In this document: piece by piece, positions 43,690 through 45,476 of the stretch
Position numbering within the stretch: position 1 is the first letter of the stretch
Layout of the letters: each line of letters begins with the position of its first letter
Assembly (NCBI GenBank): GCA_947481575.1
Contig: CANKGV010000016.1
Coordinates: forward strand, 1-53,824
Length of the DNA stretch: 53,824 nucleotides
Origin: Alphaproteobacteria bacterium
Lineage (GTDB): Bacteria; Pseudomonadota; Alphaproteobacteria; UBA2966; CAIVPW01
Direction: 5' to 3'
The notes under the pieces: generated by a model
The model's database searches: none
What the model saw: only the letters and a program-made list of their open reading frames with translations
What the model was told of the DNA's origin: nothing
Made by a program: the position numbers and the translations under genes

Positions 43690-44268
43690 ATGGCAGGCCT
43701 TCGGCTCATTCTCATTCCGCGCTACGGCGTCGACGAAAGCGCCGATTGGTACGGCTGGCTGCGCACGCAGCTCAACGCGAAGAAGAAGGAGCTCAACCTC
43801 GACGAGCTGATCTTCGTGAAGCCAGAACCATCGCTGCACGCGCCCGAAATCGGCCCGTCCGTCGCTGCGCTGCGCAAAGTGCTCGGCGCCGGCGATGCCG
43901 CCAACACCGGCATCATCGGCCACAGCCTTGGCGCGCAGATCGCGCTGCGCATGCTGGCGGAAAAGCAGGGCGGCCCGATCAAGGCGCTTCTGTGCGTCGG
44001 CGGCTGGCTCAAGCTCGACCAGAAGGCCAAGATGCTGAAGACGTTCCTCGAGCAGCCGTTCGATGAAGCGGCAGCCAAGACCCACGCCGGCCGCATCGTG
44101 AACCTCTTCTCGAAGAGCGACCCCAACCAGATGATGTGGGAAGACGTCCGCAAGGAATGGGAAAAGCGCCTCGGCGCCGAAATGCGCTTCGTGCCGACGC
44201 CCGGGCACTTCTCAGAGAAGGAAGAGCCCGACGTGCTGCAGGCGGTTCTGGACGTCTTCGGGAAATAA
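43690..44268 (+). CDS. Small serine hydrolase, RBBP9/YdeN-like
   Basis: This 192-aa alpha/beta hydrolase has its nucleophile Ser79 in the elbow GHSLGAQ, the acid Asp144 in SKSDPNQ and the base His173 in PGHFSEKEE. The ending SEKEEPDVLQAVLDVF is typical of the small RBBP9-like hydrolases. There is no signal peptide. The N-terminus MAGLRLILIPRYGVDESADW fits. It follows valS closely; no natural substrate can be inferred. A G/C-rich repeat unit begins 3 bases after its stop. Confidence 0.85.
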   Translation: MAGLRLILIPRYGVDESADWYGWLRTQLNAKKKELNLDELIFVKPEPSLHAPEIGPSVAALRKVLGAGDAANTGIIGHSLGAQIALRMLAEKQGGPIKALLCVGGWLKLDQKAKMLKTFLEQPFDEAAAKTHAGRIVNLFSKSDPNQMMWEDVRKEWEKRLGAEMRFVPTPGHFSEKEEPDVLQAVLDVFGK

Positions 44269-44270
44269 CG

Positions 44271-44301
44271 CTCCCCCCTCGGGGGAGGGCAGGGTGGGGG
44301 C
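44271..44301 (+). repeat. 31-bp G/C-rich repeat, left copy
   Basis: The unit starts CTCCCCCCTCGGGGGAG, a 7-bp hairpin with a CTC loop, and continues with a G-rich run ending GTGGGGGC. The identical 31 bases recur at 44730-44760, and a near-complementary copy lies at 44664-44694. It ends 5 bases before the DUF559 ATG, and its G-run probably supplies that gene's ribosome binding site. Confidence 0.85.
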
Positions 44302-44306
44302 TGCAA

Positions 44307-44702
44307 ATGCACCGCCAACCAGGACCAAAGTCTCCGTCCGCCACTGCCACCGCGAAGCGCCTGCGGCGCACCATGACCGATGCCGAGCGCCGCCTCTGGT
44401 CCCACCTCCGCCAGGACCAACTCAACGGGCTGCGCTTCCGCCGCCAGGAGCCGGTCGGTCCTTACGTTGCCGATTTCCTGTGTTGGCCAGCGCGGCTGGT
44501 CATCGAGGTCGACGGCGGTCAGCACGCCTCATCCAACAGTGACGTGACTCGCGATGCGTACTTCGCAGAGAACGCATTCCGCGTCCTCCGGTTCTGGAAC
44601 AACGAAGTCTTGTCGAACACGGAGGGTGTGCTGGCAGCCATCGTGGCGGCGTTGGCCCCATCAGCCCCCACCCAACCCTCCCCCAAGATGGGAGGGCGTT
44701 AG
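44307..44702 (+). CDS. DUF559 (Vsr-like) endonuclease-domain protein in a repeat-flanked unit
   Basis: This 131-aa protein has the DUF559 pattern, related to very-short-patch endonucleases: an N-terminal basic helix (AKRLRRTMTDAERRLWSHLR), then GLRFRRQEPVGPYVADFLC and the PD-(D/E)xK core LVIEVDGGQH, with FRVLRFWNNEVLSN after it. The aspartate in VADF, the glutamate in IEVDG and the GQH pair are the expected catalytic residues. The start is ATG at 44307. The last codons are translated repeat sequence (PTQPSPKMGGR). The gene is enclosed by inverted copies of a G/C-rich repeat, a setting that suggests mobility. The biological target is unknown. Confidence 0.8.
   Translation: MHRQPGPKSPSATATAKRLRRTMTDAERRLWSHLRQDQLNGLRFRRQEPVGPYVADFLCWPARLVIEVDGGQHASSNSDVTRDAYFAENAFRVLRFWNNEVLSNTEGVLAAIVAALAPSAPTQPSPKMGGR
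44664..44694 (-). repeat. Inverted, diverged copy of the 31-bp repeat
   Basis: GCCCCCACCCAACCCTCCCC and the following bases match the complement of the left copy at about 26 of 31 positions. It overlaps the last codons of the DUF559 gene, so the protein's C-terminus is repeat-derived. Together with 44271-44301 it makes terminal inverted repeats around the gene. Confidence 0.75.
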
Positions 44703-44729
44703 TTCAGCGCCACGTCCGAATCCCTCTCC

Positions 44730-44760
44730 CTCCCCCCTCGGGGGAGGGCAGGGTGGGGGC
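44730..44760 (+). repeat. 31-bp repeat, right direct copy
   Basis: Identical to 44271-44301 in the same orientation and preceded by CCCTCTCCC. It lies in the 75-base gap between the DUF559 gene and the convergent transporter gene, with no other feature there. The internal 7-bp hairpin may also end transcription from either side. Confidence 0.85.
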
Positions 44761-44777: not shown

Positions 44778-45476
44778 CTACTCCCCCAGCGCCAGCGGAT
44801 TGAACCGCGTGTCGCGGTCGAACGTGTCGATCCCCTCGGCGCGCTTCAGCCAGCCCACCACCGCGTAGGTCACCGGCGTCGCCAGCGCTTCGTAGGCGGT
44901 CTTCACCAGCCACTGCGTCACCACCGCGGTTACCAAGCCCTGGCTCGGAATGATCCCGGCGAAGGCGATGGTGATGAAGATCGCCGAATCGAGGCCTTCG
45001 CCGATCACGCTGGAGCCGATCGTGCGCAGCCACAGGGCGCGGCCGTGGGTCGCCACCTTGAGCCGCGCCAGGATGTAGGCGTTGGCGAATTCGCCCACCA
45101 AGTACGCGGCGAACGACGCGATCAAGATGCGCGGCGTTTGCCCCAGGATCGTGGTCCACGCGTCCTGGCCCTGCCAGAAGCCCGCCGCCGGCAAAAGGCC
45201 GCCGAGCCAGATCGCCAGCACGGCGGCGAGATTGCATACGAACCCCAGCCAGATCACCCGGCGCGCAGCGCGGTAGCCGTACACTTCCGTCAGTACGTCG
45301 CCGAGGATGTAGCTGACCGGGAACACGATCACCGCCGCCGGCAGCACCAGCGAGCCGAACGCAAACAGCTTCACCGCCATGATGTTGGAGGTGACCAAGG
45401 CGGTCACGAACAGCGCCACCAGCACCACGAAGCGGGTGGAGTGGTCGGCGTTGCTGGCGGAAAGGGAACGGTTCAT
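44778..45476 (-). CDS. yhhQ: Queuosine precursor transporter (YhhQ/VUT family)
   Basis: This 232-aa inner-membrane protein has about six membrane segments. Family blocks are visible: VTALVTSNIMAVKLFAFG, VLPAAVIVFPVSYILGDVLTEVYGYRAARRVIW, and RTIGSSVIGEGLDSAIFITIAF. YhhQ-type proteins import 7-deazaguanine precursors (preQ0, preQ1) for tRNA queuosine. It is divergent from queF with only 30 bases between start codons, so the promoters must overlap. The long upstream frame lies inside other genes and is not part of it. The start at 45476 gives the family N-terminus. Confidence 0.9.
   Translation of the reverse strand: MNRSLSASNADHSTRFVVLVALFVTALVTSNIMAVKLFAFGSLVLPAAVIVFPVSYILGDVLTEVYGYRAARRVIWLGFVCNLAAVLAIWLGGLLPAAGFWQGQDAWTTILGQTPRILIASFAAYLVGEFANAYILARLKVATHGRALWLRTIGSSVIGEGLDSAIFITIAFAGIIPSQGLVTAVVTQWLVKTAYEALATPVTYAVVGWLKRAEGIDTFDRDTRFNPLALGE

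Follow-up and report, generated by a model that had tools for sequence, protein, structure and literature searches.

A DUF559 gene between G-rich repeats

The window, by which we mean the whole stretch of 53,824 nt that was analysed, contains a DUF559 gene lying between a 31-bp G/C-rich repeat and a diverged inverted copy of it, with an identical copy in direct orientation downstream (Table 1). An earlier note on this DNA had described the arrangement, and all of its parts are present, although the distance from the stop codon to the third copy is 27 bases when measured and not the 29 given there. The left end (LE) reads CTCCCCCCTCGGGGGAGGGCAGGGTGGGGGC, and the right end (RE) gave an inverted-repeat score of 47, where control windows reached no more than 30.

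Table 1. Positions of the cassette, its repeats and its neighbouring genes in the window.
Feature	Position	Strand	Description
Left neighbour, alpha/beta-hydrolase-like gene	43690..44268	+	Left insertion flank; syntenic in cassette-free relatives
Left end (LE)	44271..44301	+	Hairpin CTCCCCC/GGGGGAG, G/C-rich, with G-rich tail
DUF559 gene	44307..44702	+	131 aa, Vsr-like PD-(D/E)XK nuclease; assigned by Pfam, 3hrl homology and invariant columns
Right end (RE)	44662..44694	-	Inverted copy of LE, diverged (33 nt, 85% complementary)
RE plus third copy	44664..44760	.	97-nt imperfect inverted repeat; could fold as a single long hairpin
Third copy	44728..44760	+	Direct orientation; 44730..44760 identical to LE (31/31)
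Right neighbour, VUT/YhhQ-type transporter gene	44778..45476	-	Right insertion flank; syntenic in cassette-free relatives

The G-run of LE lies five bases before the ATG of the DUF559 gene and can therefore act as a ribosome binding site, a role already proposed for it and for which its position makes it a candidate. At the other end of the gene, the last residues of the protein (...SAPTQPSPKMGGR) are indeed encoded by the inverted copy. In DNA fold computations LE and RE can each form a hairpin, and the 97 nt comprising RE and the third copy fold at -31.8 kcal/mol (z -4.26). Rfam matches within the cassette (mir-188 and others) lay far under the cut-offs and were rejected as reflections of the G-rich inverted repeat, and a search for defence-system and phage families found none of note.

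Such an arrangement might arise by chance, if the gene simply happened to adjoin G-rich low-complexity DNA. With its simple composition, the repeat does yield chance matches in relaxed searches: across the genome that contains the window, relaxed hits on its core did not rise above a reversed-pattern control (13/9 vs 15/8), no dispersed copies were found above chance outside the cassette, and the cassette matched itself alone in the 2.45 Mb (47 contigs) searched. Within the window, however, the core occurs three times, each time at the cassette, where shuffles lead one to expect 0.32 copies. Taken with the comparison of flanks across 113 loci given below, this makes a chance adjacency exceedingly improbable.

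The product of the gene matches Pfam DUF559 (PF04480) with E=4.4e-39 and 133.2 bits, against a curated cut-off of 20.6, and shows full-length homology to the crystal structure 3hrl (E=8e-28). It has every residue that is invariant in an 18-sequence family alignment, the putative catalytic set E19, D48, E59, D61 and H65 (alignment numbering) being invariant and present, and the gene is predicted to be catalytically intact. Homology to a solved member and the conserved acidic/His active-site set place the protein among the Vsr-like PD-(D/E)XK nucleases, the superfamily to which YcjD has also been assigned (PMC1189080). The nearest structure outside DUF559 is 3r3p, a Vsr-like mobile-intron endonuclease (E=0.006); judged by homology, mismatch nickases and a mobile-intron endonuclease are among the relatives of the DUF559 enzymes. 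Between paralogous DUF559 copies pN/pS ranges from 0.12 to 0.52, and the protein has therefore been kept functional by purifying selection. The DUF559 product of Neisseria gonorrhoeae (locus L144) appears to be the protein of structure 3hrl itself, and its gene lies between direct repeats with the same hairpin-plus-tail layout.

Repeats and DUF559 genes across bacterial groups

We used the flanks of DUF559 genes, up to 8 kb on each side, to examine how regularly such repeats accompany the gene in 113 loci sampled from Alphaproteobacteria, other Pseudomonadota, Deinococcus and cyanobacteria. The 160 bp before the domain were aligned, inverted, with the 160 bp after it, and matches in direct orientation were sought by alignment to 300 bp downstream; for controls, a pair of windows with identical spacing was moved along each locus. 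Inverted or direct flank matches exceeded every control from their own locus at 88 of the 113 loci, whereas randomly chosen control windows did so at 1 of 113. By group, the inverted match alone topped all controls in 43 of 60 loci from Alphaproteobacteria, 20 of 33 from other Pseudomonadota and all 4 from Deinococcus and cyanobacteria. Hence DUF559 genes of other alphaproteobacteria are flanked by such repeats, a point that the earlier note had proposed to test, and the repeats are tightly linked to the gene; scattered repeats with no such link would, by that note, have told against its reading. In the loci compared, the association is a general one that recurs across many bacterial groups.

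Searches that did not start from paired flanks gave a similar picture. A generic hairpin-plus-tail pattern had 44 matches in about 0.85 Mb, 39 of them within 200 bp of a DUF559 gene, and hairpins with a repeated arm, sought irrespective of composition, were enriched roughly 15-fold beside the gene (3.17 vs 0.206 per kb). The ends vary among genomes while their layout is constant: a C-arm, a loop, a G-arm and then a second G-arm, the two G-arms being separated by a few bases or by another hairpin (for example CCCTCTCCC..GGGAGAGGG..GGGTGAGGG). A direct copy of LE follows the gene in 38 of the 113 loci, the window among them; this recurring third copy may be an adjacent short unit or the product of recombination between repeats. 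Flank alignment detected no matching ends at 25 of the 113 loci, which may be decayed, domesticated or never have belonged to an element. Klebsiella and Pseudomonas plasmid loci gave no clear paired ends by alignment, and in the Azospirillum megaplasmids the gene is at the same place in all.

In E. coli the DUF559 gene ycjD, flanked by sapF and fabI (L147-L152), is a stable resident, present in 3361 of 5426 genomes. Stable inheritance of this kind is what one would expect if DUF559 were an ordinary host enzyme of VSP repair (Vsr) and the repeats mere terminators or regulatory hairpins, and in Caulobacter the DUF559 protein VsrA has a functional link with a cytosine methyltransferase (PMC12907096). 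We consider this account very unlikely, since it leaves unexplained the inverted ends coupled to each gene and the genome-level correlation, as well as the bounded paralogues, empty sites and short derivatives described below. We rejected ycjD as a clean empty-site case because an MFS/outer-membrane efflux operon adjoins sapF in E. coli without ycjD there (e.g. ATCC 25922 and O157:H7).

Another way to view the association is at the level of whole genomes. At least four strict-pattern repeats were present in 35 of 57 alphaproteobacteria with a full-length DUF559 match but in only 10 of 183 without one (n=240, p=2e-18), and in 22 of 31 against 8 of 182 among other Pseudomonadota (n=213, p=2e-16), although, species not being independent samples, the evidence is weaker than these p-values imply. 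Ten alphaproteobacterial genomes thus have the repeats and no DUF559 by a scan that can miss copies: the control E. coli gave no match, though K-12 has ycjD. Y1 transposases, the RAYT family, showed no relationship with the repeats (odds ratio 1.0, p=1), and Y1_Tnp is absent from the window's own genome; on both counts RAYT was rejected as the driver.

The ends are also specific to the gene that they enclose. Within a genome, an end best matches its own partner in 27 of 34 cases, and similarity of ends tracks similarity of proteins (rho 0.26, 0 of 999 permutations; 0.24 between different genomes). Ten DUF559 matches occur in the single 3.4-Mb chromosome of genome G019, and most of the eight cassettes examined there (L130, L134, L165-L170) have their own distinct ends. 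These comparisons indicate that ends and DUF559 protein evolve together.

Empty sites, paralogues and short units

Relatives from the same family as the window's organism keep the gene order hydrolase-VUT-queF and have other genes, or in genome G002 a 109-bp spacer, at the position of the cassette, with no DUF559 and no repeats at the site. None therefore carries the gene at this place without the repeats, a finding that would have spoken against the reading of the earlier note; the flanks are kept, and gene and repeats are absent together. A near-clean empty site is provided by genome G021, in which a cassette of about 450 bp lies between two genes: G154, of the same genus, has a 56-bp unrelated spacer instead, and apart from that spacer the alignment is unbroken on both flanks. 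Operons are interrupted in Sphingomonas parapaucimobilis (L242; sufB-DUF559-sufC) and in Deinococcus psychrotolerans (paaD-DUF559-paaZ), in each case with relatives that lack the cassette, so that the proposed comparison of empty sites could be made at all of these places. None of the empty-site pairs found represents a recent insertion with flanks still nearly identical; in every pair the flanks are too diverged for a target-site duplication or exact junction to be read.

Copies within a genome delimit the unit from the inside. In G103, G193 and G098, homology between paralogous cassettes extends as far as the two repeats and stops there, the flanks being unrelated. G021 has eleven units of about 120 bp, also in unrelated flanks, with LE and RE arranged as in the cassette around an unrelated interior of 10-30 bp; in its sister G154, DUF559 and strict-pattern repeats are both absent. 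In G155 there are five units of about 310 bp, one with an internal DUF559 fragment. As far as such comparisons of genomes can establish, the repeats are the ends of an element that inserts between genes, and short derivatives of it, internally deleted with both ends kept, are dispersed in some hosts like REPINs or MITEs. Defined ends, empty sites and copies in unrelated flanks are what is generally asked of a mobile element, and mobility of the unit is well supported by them.

The earlier note had suggested either a transposable or a homing unit. Homing by a free-standing endonuclease would require DUF559 to cut a solo repeat or a unit-less allele, the cassette then being copied in by homologous repair. 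The similarity to 3r3p is consistent with this, as is the direct extra copy of LE at a third of the loci, which recombination between dispersed repeats could leave. However, no empty site inspected has a resident G-rich repeat, which disfavours homing, and spread is not confined to the homologous allele because paralogous copies sit in unrelated flanks and short derivatives exist without the gene. The transposable part of the suggestion is thus upheld by the empty site, the bounded paralogues and the short derivatives, and the homing part we judge to be distinctly improbable.

Outside the G-rich palindromes, the short units of G155 (L141, L153-L156) have a further inverted repeat, CTAGGGTCTGTCGACATTC. 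These outer repeats could be ends recognised by something else, as would be the case if the mover of the unit were an IS transposase or a RAYT and DUF559 were cargo that persists for reasons of its own. Against this, no gene but DUF559 recurs in the units, which come from many families and from several phyla, the repeats correlate with it and not with the Y1 transposases that the window's own genome lacks, and the ends track the DUF559 sequence. We regard carriage by another enzyme as unlikely.

A probable one-gene element and its place among known systems

In our view the cassette is likely to be a single copy of an autonomous mobile element of minimal design, about 0.45 kb long and made up of LE, a single DUF559 gene and RE. 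In such an element the Vsr-like nuclease would recognise the structured ends (C-arm, G-arm and second G-arm), most likely folded as hairpins on single-stranded DNA, and would nick or cut at them. To our knowledge the PD-(D/E)XK fold serves hydrolysis of DNA and not strand transfer, and we know of no PD-(D/E)XK nuclease that carries out transposition alone; host enzymes would therefore have to complete the process, and we assume that replication, repair or ligation by the host finishes copying and insertion into intergenic sites. Neighbouring genes would tolerate such insertions, since a ribosome binding site can come from the G-rich end and a transcript boundary from the hairpin. DUF559 is thereby the first enzyme that could plausibly drive these repeats, for which no driver was available before.

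The cassette shares its working logic with the REP/REPIN-RAYT systems (TnpA-REP, REPtrons), in which one nuclease gene is bracketed by short hairpin repeats that are also dispersed elsewhere, in intergenic positions and as paired non-autonomous units, and in which repeat and protein co-vary. The enzymes differ, however: RAYT is an HUH Y1 transposase (PF01797), whereas the cassette encodes DUF559 only, with a Vsr-like PD-(D/E)XK nuclease. The repeats differ as well, being G-rich with a C-arm, a G-arm and a second G-arm and having no association with Y1_Tnp, and the GTAG tag of REP/RAYT is absent from LE and RE. Because the HUH Y1 enzyme and the GTAG tag are both missing, we do not file the cassette as a member of REP/RAYT. 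What the evidence supports is REP/RAYT-like logic with an unrelated nuclease fold, as had been proposed.

Three further kinds of system bear comparison. Vsr-like (EDxHD) homing endonucleases such as I-Bth0305I have a related nuclease fold within a selfish element, but they are located in introns and home to one allele, whereas here there is no intron, the ends are inverted hairpins and the empty sites are free of repeats. The mismatch nickases Vsr and VsrA have the same fold and comparable active-site residues (PMC12907096, PMC1189080) but belong to host repair, and mobile repeats have not been described around their genes. Insertion sequences and MITEs resemble the present units in their terminal inverted repeats, empty sites and internally deleted derivatives; unlike insertion sequences, these units encode no DDE, HUH or serine/tyrosine recombinase, and no target-site duplication was seen in empty-site flanks of such divergence. 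A search of the open-access literature, with subscription papers outside its scope, returned no report linking DUF559 to repeats, and a one-gene mobile element of this kind appears undescribed in the literature so searched.

Short palindromic repeats are scattered in many bacterial genomes, and for some families a mobilising enzyme is lacking; the CGTC palindromes, for example, were reported in a published survey without a dedicated transposase (PMC3733652). A large family of G-rich repeats can now be tied to DUF559, an abundant nuclease family previously without a function, across Pseudomonadota and as far as Deinococcus and cyanobacteria, and what spreads these repeats is now open to direct experiment. 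The tie suggests that a transposable element can have a small hydrolytic nuclease as its driver. Moreover, many genes annotated as DUF559, as endonuclease domain-containing or as very short patch repair probably represent selfish elements instead of repair functions.

The CGTC repeats (PMC3733652) are like the G-rich repeats in being dispersed palindromes with a short tail that are prominent in Alphaproteobacteria, but they have another sequence (CGTCATTCCC..) and were linked to GIY-YIG, not to DUF559, in all 8 loci examined. Here we noticed a second pairing of nuclease and palindrome, parallel to that of DUF559: at each of the eight loci (L286:2070-2750, L288, L289, L290, L291, L292, L293 and L294), a small sample from Azospirillum, Sinorhizobium, Neisseria, Rhizobium, Novosphingobium, Shinella, Sphingobium and Planktothrix, a single-domain GIY-YIG gene lies between matching CGTC-type palindromes. 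Tentatively, and with a little less than even confidence, we propose that DUF559 elements form a separate superfamily of mobile DNA, in which a Vsr-like PD-(D/E)XK nuclease acts on three-arm G-rich hairpins, and that together with the GIY-YIG/CGTC units they belong to a wider nuclease-palindrome class of which RAYT is one of several independent inventions. The junction of sufB and sufC is occupied by a GIY-YIG unit in Azospirillum lipoferum (L286) and by the DUF559 unit in Sphingomonas parapaucimobilis.
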